In this document: one piece after another, positions 10,339-45,753 of the stretch | Position numbering within the stretch: position 1 is the stretch's first letter | How the letters are laid out: each line of letters opens with the position of its first letter | IMG/VR virus record: IMGVR_UViG_3300031673_000026 | Location: 1-64,000 of that record | Length of the DNA: 64,000 bases | Strand: one strand, 5' to 3' | Origin: a virus | Program-made: the position numbers and the translations under genes | Notes under the pieces: model-generated | Databases searched by the model: none | What the model saw: the letters and a program-made list of their open reading frames with translations, nothing else | Told to the model about the DNA's origin: nothing

Positions 10339-10752
10339 TTACACGACCCTATCCAGGGCCGCTTCCATTTCTTTTCTCGTACAATTATAGGGAACCTTTT
10401 CACCGTAGATAACTATCCAGTGCGGTTGATCAAGGCCCTTTTCGCGGACCCTCTCACCGTTCGGGAGAAACCCGCGTTCCCCAAGCCATTTCTCCGCCGC
10501 TTCCAGGTCGTAGAATACGCGGCCGTCCCTACCAGTTACGGCATGGTATCCGCCTTCCGGACGCATCGTAATCCCGGCGGTGTCGATTTTTTTGCCATCC
10601 GGTGTGAGTCCGCGGCGCTCCATCCACCGTTCCGCCCCGCGACGTGTTTTGAATACTTTCGATTGAGTTGCCGTCAGGGCTAAAAAGCTGCCCCTTTCCT
10701 CAATGATGCCCACTACGTAGCTTTCGCCGTTTCCTAACTCATGCTTGGTCAT
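10339..10752 (-). CDS. Repeat protein, paralogue of 10778-11173
   Basis: A 137-residue protein with two internal units of about 35 residues (pattern 'AxxxWxxxRGxxPxGxxI/V' ending each, 'RGLTPDGKKI' and 'RGFLPNGERV'). The C-terminus 'IVIYGEKVPYNCTR' is nearly identical to that of the adjacent gene. The pair arose by tandem duplication. Function unknown; the regular short beta-alpha units suggest a small binding scaffold. Confidence 0.6.
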   Translation of the reverse strand: MTKHELGNGESYVVGIIEERGSFLALTATQSKVFKTRRGAERWMERRGLTPDGKKIDTAGITMRPEGGYHAVTGRDGRVFYDLEAAEKWLGERGFLPNGERVREKGLDQPHWIVIYGEKVPYNCTRKEMEAALDRVV

Positions 10753-10777: not shown

Positions 10778-11173
10778 TTACACAGCTTTATTTAAGGCCG
10801 CGTTAAGCTCTTCTCTCGTACAATTATAGGGTATTTTCTCCCCATAGATAACTATAAAGCATGGCTTGTATGTCCCGCTTTTCACTACCCGCCCGTATCC
10901 ATTATCACCAAGCCATGTCTCTGCCTCTTCAGGGTTCAAAAATGAACACCCGAACATATCGGTCGTGGTGGAATAGCCGCCATCTGCCAGCTTCGTAATC
11001 CCGGCGGTACTGATTTTTTTGCCATGAGCAGCGAACCCCCTACTTAGCAGCCAGGCAGTTGCCCCCTTAAGATCATTGAAACGCTTTGATTCGGTCGGTG
11101 ACAGGGCCATGAATTGCCGCCCTATCTTGGTGATACCGACCGTATAGTATCTATCGGGCTTGTTTTCTTTCAT
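10778..11173 (-). CDS. Repeat protein, first gene after a promoter cassette
   Basis: A 131-residue protein with the same two-unit layout and the same C-terminal 'IVIYGEKIPYNCTR' as 10339-10752. The ATG at 11173 follows CGGAGGTAATT, the leader of the promoter at 11213-11241, so it is the promoter-proximal gene. Function unknown. Confidence 0.62.
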   Translation of the reverse strand: MKENKPDRYYTVGITKIGRQFMALSPTESKRFNDLKGATAWLLSRGFAAHGKKISTAGITKLADGGYSTTTDMFGCSFLNPEEAETWLGDNGYGRVVKSGTYKPCFIVIYGEKIPYNCTREELNAALNKAV

Positions 11174-13765: not shown

Positions 13766-13838
13766 TGCCGGCGCAGGGAATCGAACCCCGAATCAATCGG
13801 TTATGAGCCGATAGCCTTAGCCGTTAGGCCACACCGGC
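13766..13838 (-). tRNA. tRNA with CAU anticodon (Met elongator or Ile2)
   Basis: A complete cloverleaf: acceptor GCCGGTG/CGCCGGC (one G-U pair), D stem GCCT/AGGC, anticodon stem ATCGG/CCGAT with loop CTCATAA, T arm CGGGG-TTCGATT-CCCTG and discriminator A. CCA is not encoded. The anticodon stem lacks the three G-C pairs of initiator tRNA. CAU could read Met, or AUA if the host modifies C34 to lysidine; the sequence alone does not separate these. Confidence 0.93.
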
Positions 13839-17069: not shown

Positions 17070-17387
17070 ATGATTATCAGACTGAAAAATGAAAAAATAT
17101 ATGATGGACTCGATTACCCTTACGTTGCAATCGGCAGCACCCTTGACCGGGGCGGCGGAAAACTGGTAATCGTTACCGATGAGGTAACGGACATGGAGAC
17201 CGGGGAAAGGACATTAACGGTCGAGTCCTACAGCAAGGCCCTAAAAAAGAAATACTCCCGGCGACGCGGGGTTAACGTATTCTTTTGGGGGTACAATAAG
17301 AACGTAACTGGGAAAGGCGACATTTCCATATTTAACAGAAATAAAGCCATACCAGAATTAAAGGAGATCAAATGCCAGACAAAATAA
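17070..17387 (+). CDS. Small protein, head of glycosidase/lysis unit, leaderless
   Basis: A 105-residue basic protein ('KKKYSRRRGVNVFFWG'). The ATG at 17070 has no ribosome binding site and lies 35 bases from the first base of the -35. It overlaps the next gene by 16 bases. No family recognised; its position makes it the first product of the glycosidase and membrane-protein unit. Confidence 0.6.
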   Translation: MIIRLKNEKIYDGLDYPYVAIGSTLDRGGGKLVIVTDEVTDMETGERTLTVESYSKALKKKYSRRRGVNVFFWGYNKNVTGKGDISIFNRNKAIPELKEIKCQTK

Positions 17388-18730
17388 AACTGATTTGCAG
17401 CCCGCTGGGTGGGTATTCGCTTTTGTCACGCGATAAGTGGCATATATCGTACATGAACCCGGACGGCAGCCTTGACATGCCGCGCCTGGAAGAAATCCTG
17501 CGGAGGATAGCCAACGCTGGAGCGAACGCCATCAGGGAATTTCCCTGGTGGATACAGAATGAAGGGGAAATGGCGGTGCTTAGTGGCTTTACTGTAGACA
17601 AGTCTCTGCCTGCTCACAATGACATGATTATGAATCCTAACTATTTCAATAATCAACGTACGATAGCAGAGACAGCGAAGAAATATAACCTGGAATATAT
17701 CTTTTGTCTCTACAACAACAGCGAAACGGTCCCTAATAAGGACGGCGTTTTCTCCCCATGGTCACAATGGAACGGCGATAAGGAATTTTTCTATAAGAAT
17801 GAAGCCGGTCCCTACCGAAAGCAGTGGATAGAAAAAATACTAGAGACGTTCACCGGCATGGAAAACGTTTCTTATGATCTGGTCAATGAAGGGTCACACA
17901 AATACCCGGTAGAAATAGCGCAAATGTACCTGGGGATGCTAAGTTACGGGGTGCCGGTAAACAGGCTCAGTATCGGGATAAATTACGGTGAAAAGAAGAT
18001 AAATACCGATCTTATCGGCAGTTACAAAAAGTTTTCAGATAGGATCATATTCCTTCGCGGTGAGCAATTCTATATCGACAATGTTAAACGGCCCAGCGGG
18101 TCCTGGAGCCCGTTCCACGCCATCGATGATAAGAGATTGGCGGTATTCTGGACCGACGGGCTGGAGCCAGGCCAGGGAGTTCCAAAAGGCGGGCACCGGC
18201 CGACAAAATACAGCACCGACGGAACACGAATTGACGGCCTGCGCCCGAATCTCATGCAGACATACGATATGGCCAAGCGCGTCATGAGCACGAAATCAAG
18301 GGCGGTAGATAAGGGTATCGTTGCTATAGAGGTACTATTCGGAAAAGAAATGAATATTGTTGACCCCACGGCAGCCATGACAGGACTAACGCTGGCATAC
18401 CAGGAACATACCGGTGAATTTCCGGAAAATTACGGAAAATTCCCTGCCGAAGAAGTGCCGCCGGAGGATACAGATATCGATGAAGCGGTGGATTTGCTTT
18501 CGGGAATGATAGGGGAGCGGCTACAGATTATCGAGAAAACAGAGAAAGCCCTCAAGTTAATCGATAGATTCGTCGCGGAAGCTACAGCGTTAGAGCCCAC
18601 GGCGGCCTCACAATTAGGAAAGGCCGGCCGGGCCGTGTTCGCCGCAAAGGAAATGAGTACCGGCCCGATAGAACAAATAGTAAGCGCCCTGAAATTTATC
18701 GATGAATATAATGGACAGGTGGCAAAATGA
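17372..18730 (+). CDS. Clan-A-like glycoside hydrolase (cellulase-type TIM barrel)
   Basis: A 452-residue protein. Residues 1-340 look like a (beta/alpha)8 glycosidase: 'GANAIREFPWW' (strand 2 region), 'YDLVNEGSH' with Glu173 as likely acid/base, and 'FLRGEQFYI' further on. A canonical nucleophile motif is not obvious, so the enzyme may be atypical or binding-only. Residues 360-452 form a charged helical tail. No signal peptide. Likely acts on host surface polysaccharide, alone or as part of the virion. Confidence 0.6.
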   Translation: MPDKIKLICSPLGGYSLLSRDKWHISYMNPDGSLDMPRLEEILRRIANAGANAIREFPWWIQNEGEMAVLSGFTVDKSLPAHNDMIMNPNYFNNQRTIAETAKKYNLEYIFCLYNNSETVPNKDGVFSPWSQWNGDKEFFYKNEAGPYRKQWIEKILETFTGMENVSYDLVNEGSHKYPVEIAQMYLGMLSYGVPVNRLSIGINYGEKKINTDLIGSYKKFSDRIIFLRGEQFYIDNVKRPSGSWSPFHAIDDKRLAVFWTDGLEPGQGVPKGGHRPTKYSTDGTRIDGLRPNLMQTYDMAKRVMSTKSRAVDKGIVAIEVLFGKEMNIVDPTAAMTGLTLAYQEHTGEFPENYGKFPAEEVPPEDTDIDEAVDLLSGMIGERLQIIEKTEKALKLIDRFVAEATALEPTAASQLGKAGRAVFAAKEMSTGPIEQIVSALKFIDEYNGQVAK

Positions 18731-19641
18731 TACTTGGAATCAATCTACACAACCCACACCCTGACTCCTTGGGGGTTCTCAAGGAATTTGGTTTTAAGCA
18801 CGTCCGGTTGGATTTTTCATGGGATATCCTGGAGCCGGAAAGAGATGCTCATAACAATGAGCAAATGGACTACGCTGTCGAATGGGCGAAGGAAAACGAT
18901 ATCGATGTCCTGGGGATACTGGCATATACCCCCGGATGGGCTAATGGCGGGAATAGCAGGAATTATCCGCCCTTGGAAGTAGAAATCAGGTACTGGCAAC
19001 GATTTGTTCATCTAACGATACAGCGTTACCACTGGGTGAAATATTGGGAAATATGGAACGAGCCCAATCTCGATCAATTTTTTCATGGCGACGTTGCGGA
19101 GTACATGAGCAAGGTTTACGTGCCTGCGAAAGATGTCATCCGGGGGCACGCAAGCCGTCAAATAACGATGAATTATAGCGGGCCCTATGTATGCGGACCG
19201 GCGCTTGCACACCTGGAGGGGGCTAATTGGTCGCGGTGGATGAGGGATATCCTTGGTGGACATCCCTATTCCGATGATATTGCCGTTGTGACGCACCATA
19301 ATTACCCGGAAGACCCAAACGAATTTTGGCAACGCATGGAGAAGGTTCGTAAAATACAGGCCGGGGAAGGGCACGCTGATAAGCCGCTGTGGATAACCGA
19401 GTTCGGGCGGAAGGTAGGTAGGTATATAACGGAAGCCGAACAGGCAGAGTGGTTCCGGGCGCAACTTTCCGTATTTAACGGTCACGATGAAATTGATAGG
19501 GCATACATATACGTACAATACGATGACTCGGACCCGAAATATGCAGGTTTTGGCCTTACCGGCCCGCCCCCTGAGTTTCGGATGAAACCGGCCGGGGAAG
19601 TGGTGAAAGAATATTTACGAAAACAAGGAGAAATAACATGA
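18727..19641 (+). CDS. Glycoside hydrolase, GH39/GH5-like
   Basis: A 304-residue TIM-barrel glycosidase. 'EIWNEPN' gives the acid/base Glu112 and 'WITEFG' the nucleophile Glu225; the order and ~113-residue spacing fit clan-A retaining enzymes (GH39, GH5, GH53 relatives). 'GFKHVRLDFSWDILEPE' is the usual strand-2 region. It overlaps the previous gene by 4 bases, making a tandem glycosidase pair. Probably a polysaccharide depolymerase; no secretion signal, so virion attachment or release by lysis is needed. Confidence 0.78.
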   Translation: MILGINLHNPHPDSLGVLKEFGFKHVRLDFSWDILEPERDAHNNEQMDYAVEWAKENDIDVLGILAYTPGWANGGNSRNYPPLEVEIRYWQRFVHLTIQRYHWVKYWEIWNEPNLDQFFHGDVAEYMSKVYVPAKDVIRGHASRQITMNYSGPYVCGPALAHLEGANWSRWMRDILGGHPYSDDIAVVTHHNYPEDPNEFWQRMEKVRKIQAGEGHADKPLWITEFGRKVGRYITEAEQAEWFRAQLSVFNGHDEIDRAYIYVQYDDSDPKYAGFGLTGPPPEFRMKPAGEVVKEYLRKQGEIT

Positions 19642-26409: not shown

Positions 26410-26719
26410 AACAAAAATTAAGGCTGGGTACAAAGATGAATATCTCGTCATTAAAGGCGACGGGAACCCATCGGACCCGGAAGCATGGTTTTGGGTGGCG
26501 AGGATTGATACAGGCGGAGACCCACACGCCCTGGAAGCATTTCAGCATTACGCATATGGGATAAGTGAAATAGACCCACAGGCATCATTAGAAATGCTCA
26601 TGGTATACAGGTTGATAAAAATGGGTTACGCCAAAAAAAGTATCGAAGACATGATGAGAAATTTCAGCTATGACATTGAAAGGTTAGATGAAAGGATGGG
26701 CGGCGAGGGTAAAAAATGA
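26402..26719 (+). CDS. Small protein of unknown function
   Basis: A 105-residue protein ('EAWFWVARIDTGGD'), coupled to neighbours by overlaps at both ends. Helical second half. Function unknown. Confidence 0.55.
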   Translation: MTKTKIKAGYKDEYLVIKGDGNPSDPEAWFWVARIDTGGDPHALEAFQHYAYGISEIDPQASLEMLMVYRLIKMGYAKKSIEDMMRNFSYDIERLDERMGGEGKK

Positions 26720-26952
26720 AACCGGCGGAGCTTGAAAAAATCAAAGAAACCAGGGAAAGCCTATTAGTATTCCTTGACGGCGTTTTCATCGATGGCTTCC
26801 TGCGCCTGGACGAACCAGGGTGGGGAAGCAGTGGCATGGAGTTTGACGGCAGTGACCCGGAACACTTACAGAAACTATACGAAAGAATAGAGAGTTTCTA
26901 TGCGACCAGGACACCCCTGTACATCAGGGGACAAGAAAAGGAGGAAAAATGA
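26716..26952 (+). CDS. Small protein of unknown function
   Basis: A 78-residue acidic protein with 'VFIDGFLRLDEPGWGSSG' in the middle. 4-base overlaps on both sides. Function unknown. Confidence 0.52.
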   Translation: MKPAELEKIKETRESLLVFLDGVFIDGFLRLDEPGWGSSGMEFDGSDPEHLQKLYERIESFYATRTPLYIRGQEKEEK

Positions 26953-27230
26953 GGCAAAACGCAGTTAGTATTAAAGAGGTAAAGGAGCTCATGGGAATAG
27001 CATGTGGGCTCGGAATCGAAGTTATTTACAGCGAAAAAAAGTTAGACCGGTGCTACCTCGGAAGTAGTGAATCCGTAATAATCAATGTAGACAGTAGGTT
27101 GCCTGAAATTTACAACGACCTGTATGAAAAAATTGAAGCGGCCGGGGGCAACCCACTGGAAGACCAAAACGGTTCGCTTTATGGATATTGGTTACTATTG
27201 AAAGAAGAAGAAAAAGAGGAGGAAAAATGA
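26949..27230 (+). CDS. Small protein upstream of RecT
   Basis: A 93-residue protein ending in a Glu/Lys run. It overlaps the RecT start by 4 bases, so is made with it. Function unknown. Confidence 0.55.
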   Translation: MRQNAVSIKEVKELMGIACGLGIEVIYSEKKLDRCYLGSSESVIINVDSRLPEIYNDLYEKIEAAGGNPLEDQNGSLYGYWLLLKEEEKEEEK

Positions 27231-28030
27231 CAAAAACTAAGAATGCAGTGGTGAAAGCCACAGAAAACGGAGATAACGGAAACGGAATACTTCCGATGTG
27301 GCAGGCCGATTTTCTAGCCAAAACACGGAAGCTGTTCGCCCCGACCCTAAGTGAAACCGAATTCCTGTTCTTCGTGTCTTTGGGAAAGAAATACGGAGCG
27401 GACCCAAGGGCCGGGGAAATATGGCCGGTCAAGTATGGCGATGCTCCAGCCGCTATATTTCTGGGGAAAAACTTCTACCTCAAAAAGGCCCAAGAGCAAC
27501 CGGACTACAATGGGCATAGGTCGGCATGCGTATACGAGAACGATATATACAAGCCAGCCTTTGACGGCACCGGCAAGATAACAATGATTCACGAACCCGC
27601 AAGAAAGAAAGATCGTGGCAAATTGGAGTCGGCTTACTGCATTGTACACAGAAAGGGAATAGACACCCCGTTTTTTGTTACGGTTGACATCGATGAGTGT
27701 AATAAGGACGCGAAAGGAAACCCGAAAGGGGCAAAGTGGAAAACAGAACCCGCGGTAATGTTAGAAAAAGTAGCATTGTCGCGGTGCCTGCGACTTGCAT
27801 TCTATAGCTATTTCAAAGGAACATATGCTGGAGAAGAGCAATCGATAATCGAGGCATCCGCCGGCGAAGAACCCAGCGAATTTGCGGAAAACGGAACCAA
27901 CTACCCCGACGAACCCCCTGCAATAGAAGAAGAGCATGAAGAAATCATTGAAACGGAAGTAGAAGAGGTGTCGCAGCCGGTTGAGTCGCAAGCAAAACCA
28001 CCAGCCAATGGTAACGGGAAACTGTTCTAA
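27227..28030 (+). CDS. recT: RecT/Bet family single-strand annealing protein
   Basis: A 267-residue annealase. Family features: 'LSETEFLFFVSLGKKYGADPRAGEIWPVKYG', here residues about 40-70 (the L-x-F---G---L-P---EIY-like block), Gly/Lys-rich 'KNFYLKKAQEQPDY', and 'EPAVMLEKVALSRCLRLAF', the Bet/RecT helix that binds DNA. The C-terminus is a long acidic tail, common in these proteins. ATG at 27227 with GAGGAGG. Works with the nuclease encoded next in phage recombination and replication. Confidence 0.88.
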   Translation: MTKTKNAVVKATENGDNGNGILPMWQADFLAKTRKLFAPTLSETEFLFFVSLGKKYGADPRAGEIWPVKYGDAPAAIFLGKNFYLKKAQEQPDYNGHRSACVYENDIYKPAFDGTGKITMIHEPARKKDRGKLESAYCIVHRKGIDTPFFVTVDIDECNKDAKGNPKGAKWKTEPAVMLEKVALSRCLRLAFYSYFKGTYAGEEQSIIEASAGEEPSEFAENGTNYPDEPPAIEEEHEEIIETEVEEVSQPVESQAKPPANGNGKLF

Positions 28031-28040
28031 AGGTACTATA

Positions 28041-28625
28041 ATGATAATCTACGACTGGAAAACCGGAGCGGAAAACAAGAAGCGCGACCACCTACAGCTA
28101 TGTGCTTACGCGAAGCTGTGTAGCGTCAACCCCTCACTCTGCACACCCGGACTGGAGTTCAGCAAAGAAGAGCATATGTATACCTTTAACGGCAATACCC
28201 TTTCGAGCGTTAGCGCGCTACTCGATCAATTCTATGGCAACCAGTTCTATAAGGATGATTCAGCCGCGAAGCGTGGCACGTTTGTCCACAGCCTATGCCA
28301 ACAGTACGTTGAGCACGGGGCTATTAACTGGCGGGTCATATCGACCAAGTACCCGGAAATCTTGCCCTATATGGAAGCCTTCCGCGACTTCTACGATGCT
28401 GAAAATATCAAGGAAAAAAACGCTGTCTGCGAGGTAATGTTGGGCTCTTTTTCCCTGGGAATTGCCGGTAGAATCGACATGATCGTGAAGGACGCGACCC
28501 CGGTCAAGGCTTTTAATGTTTATCTTAAGTCAACCGGGAAGTACCGTCTTATCAACAGGGCGTTAAACAAGAGTGATTGGAACAGGTTTCTATCATACAT
28601 TAACGTTTACAACGATATGAAATAG
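28041..28625 (+). CDS. PD-(D/E)XK exonuclease with rearranged motifs
   Basis: A 194-residue protein partnered with RecT. Residues 2-27 carry the D-x-KTG and QL-x-AYA motifs (Asp5, Lys7, 'LQLCAYAKL') that normally come last in RecB/Cas4-like phage nucleases. Residues 40-150 then show the usual N-terminal half ('LSSVSALLDQF', 'RGTFVHSLCQQYVEHG', 'GRIDMI'). Where the last motifs should recur there is only 'VYLKSTGK' and 'FLSYINVYN', lacking the first Asp and Gln. So the functional motif may have moved to the front. Start at 28041, AAAGG upstream. Confidence 0.7.
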   Translation: MIIYDWKTGAENKKRDHLQLCAYAKLCSVNPSLCTPGLEFSKEEHMYTFNGNTLSSVSALLDQFYGNQFYKDDSAAKRGTFVHSLCQQYVEHGAINWRVISTKYPEILPYMEAFRDFYDAENIKEKNAVCEVMLGSFSLGIAGRIDMIVKDATPVKAFNVYLKSTGKYRLINRALNKSDWNRFLSYINVYNDMK

Positions 28626-28633
28626 GAGGATTT

Positions 28634-28867
28634 ATGAGCAGCGTTATACACAAGAAGTCAATTAGCTCCCTGCGTGCCCTTGAGATAGCCGCTATCAACA
28701 GGAAGGCCGTCGTGTGCGTCGTAGGGACTTATTGCAGCAAGCCATTACCGGCAGCCTTTGTTATACAGTTCCAGGGGTCGGCAATACTCAGGATGATAAA
28801 GGAAGGACTATATTTATATGAAAAAATTGGAGGAAAAAATGAAGGAAAATGGTATAGTTATCAATAA
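28634..28867 (+). CDS. Small protein of unknown function
   Basis: A 77-residue basic protein, ATG at 28634 after TAGGAGG. Its last 29 bases overlap the next gene. 'RALEIAAINRKAVVCVVGTY' is moderately hydrophobic. Function unknown. Confidence 0.5.
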   Translation: MSSVIHKKSISSLRALEIAAINRKAVVCVVGTYCSKPLPAAFVIQFQGSAILRMIKEGLYLYEKIGGKNEGKWYSYQ

Positions 28868-29609
28868 AAGCAGCCTGGCGCCTTTCGACGACGTAAAGAC
28901 GCTGACTGCGCGGATTGAAAACGAAATACTCAAGATCAGAGAGGTGCAAGAAGCTATCAGCGAACTGCAAACTGAGTATGAAAAAGCGGGAAGCCTTAAG
29001 ATTATTTCGGAGAAGGATTACGCGGCAGCCGGAGCGTCACTAACAGTGATATCTAACAACATAAAGCGGCTAAGGGACGGGATAAAAGTAACCCCATCCG
29101 GCAACAGGATGAAAGAACTAAAGTCAGCCCTGCATGCTTTACACAAGGGTGTCAAGGCCATCGAAGACGATCTGATATCCAAGGGTATCAAGGCGGAAAT
29201 CATTCTAAAAGAAAAATCCCGCGCCTACCTTAACGAGCAGCAGCGAAAACAGGACCTCCTGGAAGCGGAAGCATTAGCGAAAGCTGAAAAAAAGCGGGCA
29301 GAGTTGTTCAAAAAAGCGGAAGTGGCCAAACGAGACCAAACAAGAGAGCGGCTAATAGAGGAAGCGAGGCAGACGGTAGCGGCGACACCCGATGTTATGC
29401 CCAACAAAACAGATGGCATCAAAAAGGTAAAGGTATGGAATGCCGATATAACTGATAAACGGACGCTAATATTGTGGTTGCTTGACAACCGCCTTACAGG
29501 GTTCGTGACGATAAAAGAAAGTGACATTAGCCAGCACGCAAAAGACAATAATTTAGAAATAATTCCAGGGGTGAAAATTACCACATCCTGGGATGTCTAC
29601 AGGAAGTAA
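28839..29609 (+). CDS. RecT-associated coiled-coil phage protein
   Basis: A 256-residue protein: coiled coil over about 20-190, then a compact C-terminal domain ('LILWLLDNRLTGFVTIKESD' and 'IIPGVKI'). That domain is the usual ending of DUF1351-like proteins encoded beside recT in many phages. ATG at 28839 (GGAGG upstream) is preferred over one at 28818. Probably acts in the same recombination/replication pathway. Confidence 0.65.
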   Translation: MKENGIVINKSSLAPFDDVKTLTARIENEILKIREVQEAISELQTEYEKAGSLKIISEKDYAAAGASLTVISNNIKRLRDGIKVTPSGNRMKELKSALHALHKGVKAIEDDLISKGIKAEIILKEKSRAYLNEQQRKQDLLEAEALAKAEKKRAELFKKAEVAKRDQTRERLIEEARQTVAATPDVMPNKTDGIKKVKVWNADITDKRTLILWLLDNRLTGFVTIKESDISQHAKDNNLEIIPGVKITTSWDVYRK

Positions 29610-29614
29610 AGACC

Positions 29615-29734
29615 ATGACTGCGACCGAGCTCCTAAGAATGCGTTTCCAGGAAATCCTGAAATACATTAACGATCTTGAAAAGGAGCTCGCGTCGCGGGC
29701 TGTGGAAGAGCTGGAAATAACTTATACTGACTGA
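29615..29734 (+). CDS. 39-residue helical miniprotein
   Basis: An open frame from ATG 29615, five bases after the coiled-coil gene. 'LLRMRFQEILKYINDLEKEL' reads as one amphipathic helix. No good ribosome binding site, so it depends on coupling to the gene before. Moderate support. Confidence 0.4.
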   Translation: MTATELLRMRFQEILKYINDLEKELASRAVEELEITYTD

Positions 29735-29759
29735 GATTAACGAAAAAAAGGAGAAAAAT

Positions 29760-29909
29760 ATGAAACATTTAAATTTTAGAAAAGTAACGATTGCCAACCT
29801 TAACCGCTTGTATACCCCTGGGTATGATGATGAAACCAGAAGAACAGATTGCGGGTCCTATTGTGTTTGTCAGGAAGGCGATATCACCGATACCTATGGT
29901 GACAGGTAG
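29760..29909 (+). CDS. 49-residue protein
   Basis: ATG at 29760 with AAGGAG upstream. 'YDDETRRTDCGSYCVCQEGD' has three Cys near the end. The gene is followed by a GC-rich hairpin. Function unknown. Confidence 0.5.
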   Translation: MKHLNFRKVTIANLNRLYTPGYDDETRRTDCGSYCVCQEGDITDTYGDR

Positions 29910-29922
29910 ACTTATTGTGGTC

Positions 29923-29941
29923 GCGGCCCCCATAGGGCCGC
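29923..29941 (+). promoter_or_regulatory. GC-rich intercistronic hairpin
   Basis: GCGGCCC, five-base loop, GGGCCGC: a perfect 7-pair GC stem between 29909 and the next gene. The following bases lack a T run, so termination is unlikely; a pause, processing or stability site is more plausible. Confidence 0.5.
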
Positions 29942-29974
29942 ACCTATCAGTATAAACATAAAAACGGAGAAAAA

Positions 29975-30400
29975 ATGAATATTCCACGCTTACTTGAAAG
30001 ATACTGGTTGCCGCACCTGGTCGGAATTAGCCAGGTAATTAGATTCGACGATGATCGTGTTGAAAGAAATATCGGCGACCCGGTGAAATTAATCGGGCTA
30101 AATCCGAAGCTTTGTCGTTGCTGCAACGAAGGCGAGCCGTGCTTAGATTACGATGTCCTTCAATGGGAAAAAAATATGCTAATCGTAACGACCGCGACGA
30201 AATGCTTGCTTTGCAATATGCAGGGAAGCGACTCGTTTGCAATTCACTTTTGTGAGAATTGCCATGCACCAATCGAACCCAGGGGTAAGAAATTTATGTA
30301 TAGTAGTCAATATCGAGAGCTTGACGATATGGAAGTATGCGAAAAATGCTTCGATGATTTAGGCGGGGAAGAAGCAACGGGAAGTATTTTTGGTAAATAA
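29975..30400 (+). CDS. Zinc-ribbon protein
   Basis: A 141-residue protein with three CxxC-type pairs: 'LCRCCNEGEPC', 'KCLLCN', 'CENCHAP' and a final 'VCEKCFDD'. The last two form a FYVE/ribbon-like Zn site. ACGGAG precedes the ATG. Function unknown. Confidence 0.58.
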   Translation: MNIPRLLERYWLPHLVGISQVIRFDDDRVERNIGDPVKLIGLNPKLCRCCNEGEPCLDYDVLQWEKNMLIVTTATKCLLCNMQGSDSFAIHFCENCHAPIEPRGKKFMYSSQYRELDDMEVCEKCFDDLGGEEATGSIFGK

Positions 30401-30426
30401 AGTTAAAAAATATATAGGAGGAAAAC

Positions 30427-30552
30427 ATGGCACACGACGATATACCAGAAGACGACTACCAAAGTTTCCCCTGCAACTGTGGCGGGGAAATAAAGAAAAA
30501 TGCGTACGGGTATTGGGAATGCGATACTTGCGATTTTCGCAAGGAAGTGTAA
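30427..30552 (+). CDS. 41-residue zinc-ribbon miniprotein
   Basis: ATG at 30427 with AGGAGG upstream. 'CNCGGEIKKNAYGYWECDTC' is a complete minimal zinc ribbon (C-x-C, then C-x2-C about 15 residues later). The stop is one base before the next ATG. Confidence 0.6.
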   Translation: MAHDDIPEDDYQSFPCNCGGEIKKNAYGYWECDTCDFRKEV

Positions 30553-30553
30553 T

Positions 30554-30877
30554 ATGCCCATGACATACGATGAAGCATTTGAATTTTTCGATAAGCACTA
30601 TAGGGGCGAATGGCACTTCCCTTACCCAATAAAGAAGTGCGGAGGTGGCTGGAGCATGCTTTGCCACTCTAAAGAAAATCTATCAACATACGACAACAAC
30701 AACCTGACAAGGCTTGTTCTTAGGGCACATCACGAGGCTTACCGGTTACACATTGAAAGCGCGGGAAATAAGATGAAAATTGTTATCTACAAGCGCGTCA
30801 GGGACCCGGAGGAGAGGTATTACAGAAGGCACCCGTCGATAGAAGAGGCGATTGAACACTGGCTGGAGTGCGGATAA
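30554..30877 (+). CDS. Protein of unknown function
   Basis: A 107-residue protein, ATG at 30554 directly after the previous stop. Mixed alpha/beta ('MKIVIYKRVRDPEERYYRRH'). Function unknown. Confidence 0.55.
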   Translation: MPMTYDEAFEFFDKHYRGEWHFPYPIKKCGGGWSMLCHSKENLSTYDNNNLTRLVLRAHHEAYRLHIESAGNKMKIVIYKRVRDPEERYYRRHPSIEEAIEHWLECG

Positions 30878-30878
30878 T

Positions 30879-31157
30879 ATGAAACGCAGTGAAAGAAAGC
30901 TCATGAATAGAATCGCAAAAATAGGTGACCTAAAAGAAGAAATAGAAGGCTTCCTTTGGAAAACCAATTATGACTTATGGAAAATATTAGATGATAACGA
31001 CCTGTATGTTCCTAACATTTATGAATACAGGGTTGACTTTAACAGCATGGTTGTGTATTTTGTGGATGTAGGAAGCGGCGATGTAGTAACCAATAAGTAC
31101 GGTGAAAGATTCGAGATCGATATATTGGGAATGTTAATGAAAAAATACGGAGGATGA
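30879..31157 (+). CDS. Protein of unknown function
   Basis: A 92-residue protein starting at 30879, immediately after the previous stop. Helical start rich in Lys/Arg, then 'YRVDFNSMVVYFVDVGSGD'. Function unknown. Confidence 0.55.
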   Translation: MKRSERKLMNRIAKIGDLKEEIEGFLWKTNYDLWKILDDNDLYVPNIYEYRVDFNSMVVYFVDVGSGDVVTNKYGERFEIDILGMLMKKYGG

Positions 31158-31158
31158 C

Positions 31159-31395
31159 ATGAAGTATATACTGACAGAAAAAGAGTTAAGGCGATATGAA
31201 AAAAGGATTGAGGAAAAGCAAAGCATAATTAACGGCCTATGTCAGCGCGTCTGCGATAGCGAGCCAATCAGCATAGAGGGCTGTTATAAAAACACCTGGG
31301 GATGTATCTATAGTAGCGACCATAAAAACGAATGGTACTGCGATGAATGCCCTGTCCTAAATATATGCGGGAAGATAAAACATTTTTCAAAATAA
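31159..31395 (+). CDS. Cys-rich protein, last gene before the structured RNA
   Basis: A 78-residue protein: N-terminal charged helix, then seven Cys ('CQRVC', 'GCYKNTWGC', 'CDECPVLNIC'), probably two metal sites. GGAGG lies five bases upstream of the ATG. Its stop lies three bases before the -35 box at 31399. Confidence 0.58.
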   Translation: MKYILTEKELRRYEKRIEEKQSIINGLCQRVCDSEPISIEGCYKNTWGCIYSSDHKNEWYCDECPVLNICGKIKHFSK

Positions 31396-31398
31396 AAG

Positions 31399-31427
31399 TT
31401 GAAAAAATAGCAAAAATGTATTATAAT
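31399..31427 (+). promoter_or_regulatory. Promoter of the structured RNA (leaderless class, L2)
   Basis: TTGAAA (31399-31404), 17-base spacer, consensus TATAAT (31422-31427), then six bases and an ATG at 31434. This is the best -10 in the window, with the same 35-base geometry as the other L promoters. Confidence 0.85.
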
Positions 31428-31444
31428 AGTAATATGAAAAACAA

Positions 31445-31533
31445 AATGATTGTCCAGGCAAATGCACTTATAAAATTCACGGATTCCCTCAGTTGCCGAT
31501 CTGGACAATCATTGCTGAGGGAGTCCCGTGAAT
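31445..31533 (+). promoter_or_regulatory. Mutually exclusive helices at the 5' end of the structured RNA
   Basis: Helix A pairs 31445-31457 with 31501-31513 (13 perfect pairs). Helix B pairs 31475-31492 with 31515-31533 (18 pairs, one bulged C and one G-U). The arms are interleaved A-B-A'-B', and only one base separates A' from B', too short to bridge a 13-pair helix. So the full helices should exclude each other, as in a switch. A 33-codon frame (31434-31535) spans exactly this segment. Confidence 0.75.
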
Positions 31534-32090
31534 AAGCAATCACTATCTTATGGCGTGGTTATTCCTTATGGAATAAGTTATCGGGTTCATGGCCGGGACG
31601 CAAGGTTATACCTTGCCCACGTCAACACCCAAAAAAAGAATAAGCAATCATACCATCTACAATCCAGAAATGGTCTCCCGGGAGGCGTAACATCAGACCT
31701 ATTGCTGTCCCGGCGGACACCGTTAGTGCGAAACGGCTGTAGCGGCTTATTATTCTTACGTCTTCCAATAGGGGGCGTAGGGTTGCACTCTCAGGCCCGT
31801 ACAAGTTACGATGTGGATGGTTACTTAAAGGAAGAGGCGGTAACGTCGAGACGACAGGTTGCAGGCTTGGCAACCTGCAACGGTCGGAGTAGGCACGTTT
31901 TAAGAAAGCCAATCGTAGTGCAGTTCTCTTTTCTCATTCCGGGGTGGAAGTCCCCGGGCTTCCTTTTAGTACTAATAATGGCGGAAGTTGTAGAATGCAT
32001 TTCCTTAGCCGTGCGCGTGCCAGGTGGCAGGCATGGTCAACGGCGACATCAAGTAAGGAGTGTTCCACGGCAGCAAGGGTGGTTCCCGGT

Positions 32091-32139
32091 GGCGATTCTT
32101 TCGCTGCTGACGGTTCAATTCCGTCGCAGCCGCCTTTTT
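32091..32139 (+). terminator. Terminator of the structured RNA with T-arm-like tip
   Basis: GGCG (32091), 8-base bulge, GCTGC, one-base bulge, GACGG, loop TTCAATT, CCGTC, GCAGC, CGCC, then five T. The tip GACGG-TTCAATT-CCGTC matches a tRNA T arm exactly (5-pair stem and TTCRANY loop). It can act as an intrinsic terminator and at the same time mimic a T loop. Confidence 0.8.
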
Positions 32140-32162
32140 ATGAAATTTAACGGTAAGATATC

Positions 32163-32459
32163 ATGACTAAAGAACTACTTAGAAAAGCACGGAAAGCACA
32201 CATGTGCTATCGGTGCGAGTTTCCGATTATAAAAGGCAGCAGGTATTACGAGACTGTCGGCAGGTTCCCGTTGTACGATAAGGAAGAAGAGCAAATCGGC
32301 ATTGAGTATTACCGTGAAAAGTGCTGTACTTTTTGTCACGACTTACCATCAGAAAAGCATGAGTGTGAGTGGATAACGGAAATCGATTATCAGGACTACG
32401 GGGCACCCACAGGTTTTGAGTATTGCACGGTATGTTATACGAAAAGGGAAATACAATAA
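32163..32459 (+). CDS. Zinc-ribbon protein
   Basis: A 98-residue protein with 'HMCYRCEFPIIKGSRYYE' , 'KCCTFCHD' and a final 'YCTVCYT'. The first block resembles PARP-type or 'treble' fingers of small phage proteins. It starts just after the terminator of the structured RNA, with a weak GGTAAG site. Confidence 0.58.
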   Translation: MTKELLRKARKAHMCYRCEFPIIKGSRYYETVGRFPLYDKEEEQIGIEYYREKCCTFCHDLPSEKHECEWITEIDYQDYGAPTGFEYCTVCYTKREIQ

Positions 32460-32474
32460 TACAGGAGTAAAATA

Positions 32475-33341
32475 ATGGCAAATAGATTCATCGATACAAG
32501 TACATTTGACTCGCCGTCAATCCGGCGATTACCAACAAAATTTAAATTATTTTGGTTTTACCTCATATCCACGTGCGATCATGCCGGGATATGGTCCGTT
32601 GATTATGAAATTGCCAGCATTCTTTGCGGTGGAAAAATAACAGAAAAAGACGCAAAGGAAAAAATGCATGGCAAATTCATTGAGATCGATAATGGGAAGC
32701 GTTGGTTTTTACCTGGATTTATTTTATTCCAGTACAAAACTTTCAGTTTAAAGCCCAGCATCGCCCCCCACTTATCAACAATAAATATCTTATCCCGTTA
32801 TGGCTTATGGGATGAGGATTCTCTAACTGTTAGGCAGGGGTTAGTTAACGGTTACCCTACCGTTACGGTAAGGGATAAGGATAAAGATAAAGATAAAGAT
32901 AAAGATAAAGATAAAGATAAGAACTATTCTCAAGAAGTAAAAGAAGTTGTAAGTTATTATTTTTCCACTCTGGATGCCGGGCAGCGGGAAAGATTCGAGA
33001 AAAATAGGGATAAATACCACGATGAAGCTGCAAAATTAATAAAAAATGGATTCACCGCCATTGCTATCAAGGCCGCCGTCCGGTTTGCCCGCGAGGATGT
33101 TTTCTGGAGGCCTAATTTCTTAAGCTTTTCTAAGCTAATGGCCAAAAATAAAGACGGGGTATTGTATATCGATGTTTTCCTGGAAAAGGCTAACTGTGAG
33201 ACCAAGACCCCAGGGACAAACAAAGTTACTCCAGGGCTAAGCCAAGCGGAAATCGACTATAATTACGGGCCGGAATACATCGAAGGGATGAACTACCAGC
33301 AATTCAAAATAATGAAGGAAAAGGAGGGGGGGGTAAAATAA
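32475..33341 (+). CDS. Replication initiator, O-like
   Basis: A 288-residue protein. The N-terminal ~110 residues ('RFIDTSTFDSPSIRRLPTKF' start, 'FWFYLISTCDHAGIW') form the winged-helix domain found in phage replication proteins of the lambda O / DnaD-like group. Residues 134-149 are eight Asp-Lys pairs from a DNA hexamer repeat. The C-terminal part is helical and probably contacts the helicase loader. The AAA+ loader follows five genes later. Confidence 0.72.
   Translation: MANRFIDTSTFDSPSIRRLPTKFKLFWFYLISTCDHAGIWSVDYEIASILCGGKITEKDAKEKMHGKFIEIDNGKRWFLPGFILFQYKTFSLKPSIAPHLSTINILSRYGLWDEDSLTVRQGLVNGYPTVTVRDKDKDKDKDKDKDKDKNYSQEVKEVVSYYFSTLDAGQRERFEKNRDKYHDEAAKLIKNGFTAIAIKAAVRFAREDVFWRPNFLSFSKLMAKNKDGVLYIDVFLEKANCETKTPGTNKVTPGLSQAEIDYNYGPEYIEGMNYQQFKIMKEKEGGVK
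32874..32921 (+). repeat. Eight tandem GATAAR hexamers inside the initiator gene
   Basis: Eight head-to-tail six-base units (GATAAG, six GATAAA, GATAAG) coding for Asp-Lys repeats. The tract is very AT-rich and, like lambda's iterons within O, lies inside the initiator gene, so it could be part of the replication origin. Copy number could change by slippage without breaking the frame. Confidence 0.9.
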
Positions 33342-33568
33342 TGGCAAAACTAAAAAAATGGCAAACCCAAAGGGCGCTATCGGCACTCCTCATGGATATA
33401 GAAAAAGATTTGCGGGAAGCGATCTGTGACTGCAATAAGTACCGGAACTATTGGGGGTCAATGTACCCGGAGGGCGATAAGGAAAAATATGACCAGGCAA
33501 TGAATCATCTACTGTACGAGGCGGAAACTATCGTCAGTCAAATAGAGAGAACGTTGGGTAAGGTATAG
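33341..33568 (+). CDS. Small helical protein
   Basis: A 75-residue protein that starts on the last base of the initiator's stop. 'EKDLREAICDCNKYRNYW' then further helix. Function unknown; next to replication genes. Confidence 0.55.
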   Translation: MAKLKKWQTQRALSALLMDIEKDLREAICDCNKYRNYWGSMYPEGDKEKYDQAMNHLLYEAETIVSQIERTLGKV

Positions 33569-33594
33569 GGCGATGAAGGAAAAAGGAGAAAACA

Positions 33595-33867
33595 ATGTGT
33601 CATGAATGTGAAAACTGCGGCAACTGCGTCAGTAGGGATGGTGATACTTGTGGGGTGCTCGGAATTAAGATTGGGGCTAATAGGCGGGACTATGATAGTG
33701 GCTATGAACGTTACGAATACAGTGTTAAATGTAATCTGTATGAGCATGATGGCGGAATACGACCTTTAGTTTGCCCGGAAGCGTGGAAAAGCGCGCAAGG
33801 CTATATTGACGAACTATTAGATGAGGTAATAGGCGAAATGGAAGGAGGAAGCCATGAAAGCAAGTGA
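33595..33867 (+). CDS. Cys-rich protein
   Basis: A 90-residue protein opening with 'MCHECENCGNCVSRDGDTC', six Cys in 19 residues, then 'KCNLYEHDGG' and 'LVCPEAW'. The C-x-LY element recalls the CxLY family of 8839, 39237 and 39449. Likely binds zinc or an iron-sulfur cluster. Confidence 0.58.
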   Translation: MCHECENCGNCVSRDGDTCGVLGIKIGANRRDYDSGYERYEYSVKCNLYEHDGGIRPLVCPEAWKSAQGYIDELLDEVIGEMEGGSHESK

Positions 33868-34045
33868 TGGGTCTAAATTAATCAAAAGAAGCATATTTAT
33901 ATGCGAAGATTGCTATGAGCTAAAAGGGGAAATGTGCTGTACCCCTGAATGCGTATTCTGCTGGCATCCGATGAGTGAAGCGGCAGAGATTCTTGATATA
34001 CTAAAGATTCGCCCGGTCGTTAATGATGAGAGATTAAGGCTATAG
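33854..34045 (+). CDS. Cys-rich miniprotein
   Basis: A 63-residue protein with 'ICEDCYELKGEMCCTPECVFC', seven Cys within about 20 residues (positions 17-37). Start overlaps the previous gene by 14 bases with GGAGG upstream. Probably metal-binding; role unknown. Confidence 0.55.
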   Translation: MKASDGSKLIKRSIFICEDCYELKGEMCCTPECVFCWHPMSEAAEILDILKIRPVVNDERLRL

Positions 34046-43832: not shown

Positions 43833-44084
43833 ATGGAAGAAGAAATAACAGCACGCGACGGCACCAAGATAATCCCTGAAAGAGTTTATTATAAGCATGA
43901 GATAGCCGATATGTTTTGCGTCGGCAAGAGAACAGTCGAGCTGTGGATACGTGGCGCCGGACTTAGAGACTGGGATAACGGTGTACAGCGATATCTGAAG
44001 ACTACCTGGTTGGGCGGGAGTGTGGCCGTCAGGGGTAGGGATATAATAAATTTCGCAAGGGCAACGACGCGGAGAGAGCAATGA
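43833..44084 (+). CDS. Helix-turn-helix protein, leaderless, head of packaging unit
   Basis: An 83-residue protein. 'YYKHEIADMFCVGKRTVELWIRGAGL' (about 18-43) has the spacing of an excisionase/MerR-like helix-turn-helix. The ATG lies six bases after the -10, with no ribosome binding site. It overlaps the ParB-like gene by 4 bases. Could be a TerS-like DNA-binding factor or a regulator of its own promoter. Confidence 0.62.
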   Translation: MEEEITARDGTKIIPERVYYKHEIADMFCVGKRTVELWIRGAGLRDWDNGVQRYLKTTWLGGSVAVRGRDIINFARATTRREQ

Positions 44085-44713
44085 TAATTACAAATAGAGT
44101 TAACGGCCTGGAGCTTGTATACTGGAAAAAGCTAACCTGGCTCCAGATTAAAGGGGCTGAAGGCGGGGATACGGGACTCAAGGAGCTATATGAAAGGGAA
44201 GCAAAGCAATTAATGAAGTCCCTTGGTAAGCACAGCTTCGTGGACCCGTTCAAGGTTTGGAAGGACCCGAAAGGCAAAATGTGGATACTTGACGGACACC
44301 ATAGGCAGGCCATATTGGAAGAGGTATTGAAGCAAAACGGAACCGTACCGGACCTATTGCCCGCGGTATTTATCGATTGCCGGGACAGAAAGGAAGCCGG
44401 GGAATTGGTGTTGACGTTCACGGCGATTTATGCGAAGCCCACCGGGCAGGGTGTTACCAGGCATATGGAGGAGTTCGGATTGGAGCTAAGTGATATCGAC
44501 GACCTGTCATTGCCGGGAATAAATTTTGATGATTTCAAGAGTGAGTTTTTTGATGAGACGGGATTGCTGGGGGGGGCACCATCAGGTATCGACCAAAACA
44601 AGTTAAAAACAGAATTTGAAATTGTGGTGGAATGCCGGGATGAAGAAGAACAAGAAAGTATTTACAATAAATTGAAAGGGGACGGATATACATGCCGAAT
44701 TTTAACATTGTAA
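44081..44713 (+). CDS. ParB/Srx-like protein
   Basis: A 210-residue protein with 'ILDGHHRQAILEE' (DGHHR at 71-75), the ParB-type CTP/ATP-binding or nuclease motif. The C-terminal 60 residues are acidic and Gln/Glu-rich. It is joined to the ABC-GNAT gene by a 22-base overlap. ParB/Srx domains next to ABC ATPases with acetyltransferase domains have been proposed as phage DNA-modification systems. Confidence 0.72.
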   Translation: MIITNRVNGLELVYWKKLTWLQIKGAEGGDTGLKELYEREAKQLMKSLGKHSFVDPFKVWKDPKGKMWILDGHHRQAILEEVLKQNGTVPDLLPAVFIDCRDRKEAGELVLTFTAIYAKPTGQGVTRHMEEFGLELSDIDDLSLPGINFDDFKSEFFDETGLLGGAPSGIDQNKLKTEFEIVVECRDEEEQESIYNKLKGDGYTCRILTL

Positions 44714-45753
44714 GGAGAATTAAGCCAAGTGATTCGTTCCGGGTGAATTCGATAAAAGGGCAGTTTGATCTCAGTCTGGATGAGGTGGAAGAAAGGTTTA
44801 CCGGAGATATTGACATAGACGGTGCGGATTGGAATATTGGCCTTATATATGGAGCGAGCGGAACCGGAAAAACCACAATAGCAACGGAATTGTTTGGGGA
44901 GGGGTGCGTGTCTGAGTACGAATACAAGGAAAAGTCCATAATAGATGATATGCCGAAAAGCGTATCAACCGAGGACATAAGCAAATCTTTCAATTCTGTG
45001 GGCTTTTCGACTGTGTGGAGTTGGCTGAAGCCATACAGCGTCCTCTCAACCGGGGAAAAAATGAGGGTTAATTTATCCCGCGCTCTACTCAGCGATGCCG
45101 CCCTGATTGTTTTCGATGAATTCACAAGCGTTGTGAATCGTGAGGTGGCGAAGGCCGGGAGTTACGCCATATCCAAAGCAATAAGGAAACAAAAAAAGAA
45201 ATTCATCGCCGTTTCCTGTCATGATGACATCGTTGAGTGGTTAGGGCCGGACTGGACCCTATGCACGGACAATATGGAATTTTCAAGGAGGTCGGTTCGG
45301 CGACCTGAAATCAAGCTCGACATCTACCCGTCCGCCTACCGAAGATGGGCAACTTATAGGAAGTATCATTATATGAGCGAAAAACTGAATAAAGCGGCAA
45401 GGTGCTATGTGGCGAAAATAGGTAAGGTGGCGGTGGCGTTTGCTGCGGTGCTGCATTTGCCACACTGGAAAAGCAAAAATTTAAAGCGGCTCCACCGGAT
45501 GGTGGTGTTGCCCGATTACCAGGGATTGGGGATCGGGCATAAGTTCAATACTTTTTTGGCGGGGCATTACAAAGGGCTTGGATTTAGGTATGTGTTCACG
45601 TCTTCGAGCAAAGCGATGTTGAATTCAATAATCGGGGACAGAAACTGGGTGGTCAGGTCTAAGAAAAGGGGAATGGCCGGTGCGGTAAGCACTGTGGTAA
45701 TAAATAAAACGGCATCGAAAAGGTACACCTTTTCTTATGAGTACGTTGGTTAG
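44692..45753 (+). CDS. ABC ATPase fused to a GNAT acetyltransferase
   Basis: A 353-residue fusion. Residues 1-200 are a soluble ABC ATPase: Walker A 'GASGTGKTT' (54-62), signature 'LSTGEKMR' (118-125), Walker B 'ALIVFDE' (137-143), switch His177 ('SCHDD'). Residues 205-353 are a GNAT domain with the acetyl-CoA loop 'QGLGIG' (277-282). No transmembrane part, so not a transporter. Coupled to ParB-like and TerS genes. Substrate unknown; DNA base modification or a packaging-linked protein acetylation are the two main ideas. Confidence 0.82.
   Translation: MPNFNIVRRIKPSDSFRVNSIKGQFDLSLDEVEERFTGDIDIDGADWNIGLIYGASGTGKTTIATELFGEGCVSEYEYKEKSIIDDMPKSVSTEDISKSFNSVGFSTVWSWLKPYSVLSTGEKMRVNLSRALLSDAALIVFDEFTSVVNREVAKAGSYAISKAIRKQKKKFIAVSCHDDIVEWLGPDWTLCTDNMEFSRRSVRRPEIKLDIYPSAYRRWATYRKYHYMSEKLNKAARCYVAKIGKVAVAFAAVLHLPHWKSKNLKRLHRMVVLPDYQGLGIGHKFNTFLAGHYKGLGFRYVFTSSSKAMLNSIIGDRNWVVRSKKRGMAGAVSTVVINKTASKRYTFSYEYVG

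Follow-up and report, generated by a model that had tools for sequence, protein, structure and literature searches.

A candidate non-circular permutation of a RecB-like nuclease core in a phage RecT recombination module

In the core of PD-(D/E)XK nucleases, strands 1, 2 and 3 form a meander, helix 2 returns the chain, and strand 4 lies beside strand 3. The nuclease domains of MGME1, AddA, AdnA, Dna2 and RecE follow this ordinary strand order. In the RecET and Red pairs, the exonuclease makes single strands for its annealing partner, which is an established pathway. Enzymes with altered motif order include the circularly permuted DNA methyltransferases, of which functional members are known.

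Here we describe a RecT-linked nuclease gene from a 64,000-nt stretch of viral DNA (hereafter the window), which comprises bases 1-64000 of a 68,006-base IMG/VR virus record. Its sequence places the product among the RecB-like PD-(D/E)XK phage exonucleases of phrog_298. Exonucleases of this family, such as that of Faecalibacterium phage FP_Brigit (AUV56626.1), are homologous to the window nuclease over all three of its pieces, share the same conserved residues and have recT nearby. In these relatives the pieces run in the order N-X-C, where X is the block that carries the catalytic strand and helix, whereas in the window nuclease they run X-N-C.

Two kinds of re-ordered protein are useful for comparison. 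As with the window nuclease, the order of catalytic motifs has changed between related enzymes among the circularly permuted DNA methyltransferases, and jumbo-phage examples of which are mentioned in the literature (PMC7824862). The methyltransferases, however, represent a circular permutation with many members, whereas the permutation described here is non-circular and is found in a single gene. The major capsid protein of phage BPP-1 has an HK97 fold with non-circularly swapped elements, as confirmed by cryoEM (PMC3863775). It resembles the window nuclease as a phage protein in which internal elements have been swapped naturally and without circularity, but it is a capsid protein and not an enzyme, it exchanges the last two of three elements, and its arrangement was seen by cryoEM while that of the window nuclease is known from sequence (PMC3863775). 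Our search of the open literature, which stopped short of two main superfamily papers, found no permuted PD-(D/E)XK enzyme, and we make no claim to a first report.

The nuclease gene and its neighborhood

The nuclease is encoded by an intact open reading frame with its ATG at 28041 and its stop codon at 28623-28625. A gene for a single-strand annealing protein, recT, lies directly upstream, and 10 nt separate the recT stop from the nuclease ATG. The features of the module are as follows.

27227..28030, + strand: RecT/Bet single-strand annealing protein (PF03837, E 2e-27; phrog_10056, E 1.3e-30)
28041..28625, + strand: permuted RecB-like PD-(D/E)XK exonuclease gene, 194 aa plus stop (phrog_298, PF12705 and family-profile matches)
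28041..28142, + strand: moved block X, residues 1-34, with catalytic strand IIYDWKTG and helix HLQLCAYAKL; key residues D5 (28053-28055), K7 (28059-28061), Q19 (28095-28097) and Y23 (28107-28109)
28146..28490, + strand: N block, residues 36-150, with N-terminal hairpin, RGTFVH helix and strands; key residues H83 of RGTFVH (28287-28289), E131 (28431-28433) and D146 of GRID (28476-28478)
28488..28517, + strand: junction KD-ATPVKAFN, the site of block X in all ordinary relatives; here strand 2 is linked directly to strand 4
28518..28622, + strand: C block, residues 160-194, with strand VYLKSTGKYRL and the last helix, in its ordinary place (profile positions 159-192)
28818..29609, + strand: 263-aa protein of the same recombination module (phrog_10477, E 3.4e-10)

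The neighbors of the nuclease are typical of phage recombination modules. The 263-aa protein shares 27% identity across 161 columns (E 1e-6) with the neighbor of the FP_Brigit nuclease, and a RecT match was found in 8 of the 19 searched records of nuclease relatives. Farther along, a DnaD-like replication protein at 32475-33341 contains a run of DK repeats in its middle.

Several other features of the window were recorded in passing. An open reading frame at 44692-45753 joins ABC-ATPase-type and GNAT acetyltransferase matches (PF00005, PF00583), directly preceded by a 210-aa frame without a Pfam match (44081-44713). A glycoside hydrolase-like protein, which is unusual phage cargo, is encoded at 18727-19641 (PF11790, PF00150) and adjoins an unmatched 452-aa frame at 17372-18730. 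On the minus strand, two adjoining, paralogue-like frames (10339-10752 and 10778-11173) each seem, by eye, to contain one motif twice. The same strand carries a tRNA-Met(CAT) gene at 13766-13838, and no other tRNA gene was found in the window.

Order of the conserved blocks

Pfam PF12705 (PDDEXK_1) covers only residues 2-29 of the window protein (profile positions 139-171 of 247; 23.3 bits, cut-off 22), and phrog_298 (exonuclease) covers only residues 38-150 (E 6.2e-14; profile positions 49-175 of 293). Pfam and PHROGs thus each match one separate piece, and the two pieces are seen in reversed order. This bears out the original prediction, made from the sequence, that a catalytic block (D5-W-K7-T-G with Q19-L-C-A-Y23-A) stands at the front, ahead of the usual N-terminal half. 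Assignment to Cas4 was rejected, as NCBIfam TIGR00372 gives 16.7 bits against a cut-off of 65 and matches residues 2-27 only.

A family profile built from 24 ordinary relatives of the window nuclease scores the window protein at 74.6 bits over three separate stretches. Residues 2-28, the catalytic strand DWKTG and helix QLCAYA, correspond to profile positions 121-148 and score 14.6 bits as a piece alone; residues 36-150 correspond to positions 4-115 and contribute 55.1 bits in the full protein; and residues 160-192 correspond to positions 159-192, which in relatives hold the strand and helix downstream of the catalytic helix. The three matches tile the ordinary protein once in the order middle-front-end, and since each part of the enzyme is present exactly once, the catalytic block has been moved and not duplicated. 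When residues 1-34 were shuffled, none of 20,000 shuffles, of which hmmsearch listed 13,246, reached the real 14.6 bits (best shuffle 14.5). None of 20,000 shuffles of the C-terminal piece (14,877 listed) reached the real score either. In alignment A2, the window protein has a gap of about 40 columns right after GRIDMIVK, where relatives have strand 3 and helix 2; in alignment A11, this donor-site gap of about 40 columns is broken into two. The ordinary order of core elements, in which strands 2 and 4 flank strand 3 and helix 2, is therefore absent, and the X-N-C order places the nuclease as a permuted descendant of the phrog_298 family, not as an ordinary member. The rearrangement is clearly visible in the assembled sequence.

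Other parts of the original prediction fared differently. VYLKSTGK had been read as a degraded C-terminal equivalent of the catalytic motif, but it belongs to the intact strand after the catalytic helix that is matched in order by the profile, and it is no decayed D-x-K site; its counterparts in relatives are ALHLQRAGKYSANHF in L014 (given also as ALHLQRAGKYS) and YGLQLLNTGKYRF in L173. Nor do the catalytic motifs come last in relatives, where about 35-45 residues follow them. The proposal of a decayed enzyme rescued by a duplicated tail is not supported, as nothing is duplicated: a six-frame profile scan of the 64,000-nt window found no second or decayed copy of the catalytic block, and the full nuclease protein, searched against all 68,006 bp of the record, finds only itself. 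A circular-permutation-like rearrangement had also been suggested. The permutation is well supported by sequence; it is not circular over the whole domain, for X-N-C is no rotation of N-X-C. Because the C piece kept its place and still comes last, only N-X has been rotated to X-N, and the permutation is a non-circular one.

Conservation was assessed at the 19 columns that are identical in at least 85% of the 24 relatives. The window nuclease keeps 16 of these, and relatives keep 17 to 19 by leave-one-out. Block X retains all four of its conserved columns, the C block both of its two, and the N block 10 of the 12 that could be placed, one further column being gapped; the three losses are a T replaced by S, a P replaced by Q and the gapped L. 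The active-site signature is complete, consisting of H83, E131, G143-D146 (GxxD), D5-K7 (DxK) and Q19-Y23 (QxxxY), residues whose individual roles in this protein we take to be those of the RecB family.

The reading frame is preserved across both inner junctions. In their own frame, blocks X, N and C show a codon signal of 0.05, 0.23 and 0.22 bits per codon, which is weak in the moved block, and the other two frames are negative. Furthermore, neither ATG nor GTG nor TTG occurs anywhere between codons 2 and 45, which leaves the N half without an independent start at the place usual in relatives. Together, the own-frame signal in each piece and the missing N-half start argue for a single fused, translated product from 28041-28625.

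Relatives and the search for a second permuted gene

A tblastn search of 50,697 phage records matched one phage, FP_Brigit, under two accessions; its 28.6% identity over residues 36-148 is the best obtained with a phage record. Relatives were gathered from phages, from IMG/VR (7, 12 and 36 loci in successive searches) and, in a single case, from a bacterial MAG. All open reading frames of at least 90 codons in the gathered loci were surveyed for block order, which yielded 87 distinct frames with a family match. The comparison with homologues that had been proposed at the outset sets the window gene apart: 69 of the 87 have the ordinary order and the window gene alone is permuted, in a survey whose profile was built from the surveyed sequences and so favors ordinary matches. 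As the window gene was itself detected, the permuted order is still visible to that profile. The remaining 17 frames are partial matches of undecidable order, none of them with the block in front.

Pattern searches likewise returned no second case. A pattern of ribosome site, ATG and D-x-KTG run over viral contigs gave at least 120 listed stretches, among which the 40 in-frame cases included no permuted gene. A DNA pattern written to capture the permuted order detects the window gene a single time and has no matches in 100 shuffles. Its sole IMG/VR match, L199, was rejected because the pattern there hits a nuclease gene of ordinary order in a frame other than its own, and it matched none of 391 genomes; the pattern requires a W-K-T-G core and narrow spacing and therefore misses DYKT-type relatives. 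The permuted order is thus represented by one gene in one assembled virus record, with no second permuted gene or independent contig found.

Searched against genomes, the window nuclease gave partial matches to its N half in 3 of 394 and 1 of 398. The genes of L033, L035 and L036 have the ordinary order. One of these, the family nuclease of L033 (2417-3088), lies on an Oscillospiraceae MAG contig and has an in-frame TGA after MKPL, which may reflect a pseudogene, recoding or an error. No relative of the window nuclease protein was found in viral contigs, genome contigs, plasmids or PDB sequences, none of the RecT or terminase among the viral contigs searched, and none of the region 26500-34000 by blastn against phages.

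A locus at the end of another contig, L168 (~1864-1929), is a chimera that is near-identical to L170 through strand 2 and continues into a G-run and unrelated sequence. Because both L168 and L170 end at strand 2, a hot spot was considered there and rejected: the endings are those of a contig and of a short excerpt, and G396, the complete record, has the ordinary order.

Predicted fold, alternative explanations and implications

With alignment A11, which has 18 full-length rows, AlphaFold2 modeled the window protein at a mean pLDDT of 64.8. Residues 81-130 were modeled well (block means 74-91). Residues 1-28 remained below 50 and near 30 for most positions; here the model forms a helix at 18-29, has no strand over 2-9 and does not place the block. 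Block X has no family rows in A11, so low pLDDT is expected there, though this does not amount to support. A second run supplied separate family rows for each piece, using fragments of relatives picked by trial with local MAFFT until the pieces matched the profile placement; it gave a mean pLDDT of 47.0, again did not place the block, and is excluded as evidence. The best structural matches of the better-modeled part were MGME1 (Z 5.0, rmsd 4.0, 101 aligned), AdnA (Z 4.6) and AddA (Z 4.2), followed by Cas4-like ACE1 (Z 3.9), Dna2 (Z 3.8) and RecE (Z 3.0). Values of 3.0-5.0 are low on the tool's own scale, yet every one of the 12 best rows is a nuclease or helicase-nuclease of the RecB-like kind. 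The matches to MGME1, AddA, AdnA, Dna2 and RecE are weak and exclude residues 1-68; the RecB-like PD-(D/E)XK fold of these domains is the one predicted for the window nuclease.

Taken together, the gene probably encodes a RecB-like exonuclease partner of RecT in which strand 3 and the following helix have moved to the gene start and which is predicted to fold into one active site. Together, as a unit of ~32 codons, the D-x-K strand and QxxxY helix would have left their place between strands 2 and 4 for the front. In the folded protein, the N-terminal block would slot back between strands 2 and 4, and a single metal-dependent active site would unite D5 and K7 with D146, E131 and H83. Residues 29-35 would tie the moved helix 2 to the old N-terminus, while the link DATPVKAFN (residues 151-159) would hop from strand 2 to strand 4; only one strand is skipped, about 10 angstroms, for which nine residues should suffice. 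Such a nuclease would resect double-stranded phage DNA ends and expose the single strand for RecT loading. As to its origin, we can only guess at a tandem duplication of N-X after which the first N and the second X were lost, or at a direct transposition of X.

As the arrangement comes from a single IMG/VR record, an assembly artefact must be weighed, in which the viral nuclease is of the ordinary kind and ~100 bases were misplaced during metagenome assembly. Contig-end chimeras do occur in the collection, such as L168, which diverges after strand 2 at a G-run where its near-identical sister in G396 (L170) is ordinary. In the window, however, the break lies inside the contig and away from its ends, frame is maintained at the two inner junctions, the block fits precisely into the space from the recT stop to the nuclease body and supplies the start codon, and no leftover or second copy of it is present, all of which makes misassembly unlikely. 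A perfect 10-nt direct repeat, AAGGACGCGA, is found in recT (27704-27713) and exactly at the donor junction (28488-28497). It might be taken as a trace of misassembly, and it could have taken part in a genuine rearrangement; by our estimate ~0.7 such repeats are expected by chance in 1.2 kb, about as many as are seen, so it means little and we draw no conclusion from it.

A real rearrangement may instead have broken the enzyme and left a dying gene that is drifting to loss. AlphaFold2's inability to place the block is consistent with this, as is Q87, at a position where all 8 relatives of alignment A1 have Glu. In the BPP-1 study, an engineered swap of the capsid protein to HK97 order gave an expressed, non-functional protein (PMC3863775), so such re-ordering can break proteins. 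Decay is nevertheless improbable for a gene whose 194 codons are open with no stop, whose catalytic positions are kept in all three pieces and whose block has neat edges. The block might also act in trans, with the N-terminal strand and helix filling the gap of a neighboring subunit in a swapped oligomer and not that of its own chain. Residues 29-35 are a short tether and some phage exonucleases of the superfamily are oligomeric, lambda exonuclease being a trimer; we nonetheless give this arrangement very little chance.

Having weighed these explanations, we regard it as probable that the permuted gene truly exists in a living phage and that its predicted enzyme is active. Most likely, it encodes a predicted re-wired but working resection nuclease that partners RecT. 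We incline slightly toward the fuller reading, that in this phage RecT-exonuclease module the PD-(D/E)XK core has been permuted naturally and non-circularly and still works, with the strand and helix that supply half of the active site at the N-terminus.

Annotation with ordered profiles sees such an enzyme in pieces: here PHROGs stopped at the N half, Pfam at the catalytic block, and neither recognized the whole. The closest phage precedent that we found for non-circular re-ordering is a capsid protein, that of BPP-1. If the window nuclease is active, it would mean that a central strand of a very widespread nuclease fold can come from the N-terminus, and the protein would offer a small natural system in which to study how a protein core withstands being re-ordered non-circularly.
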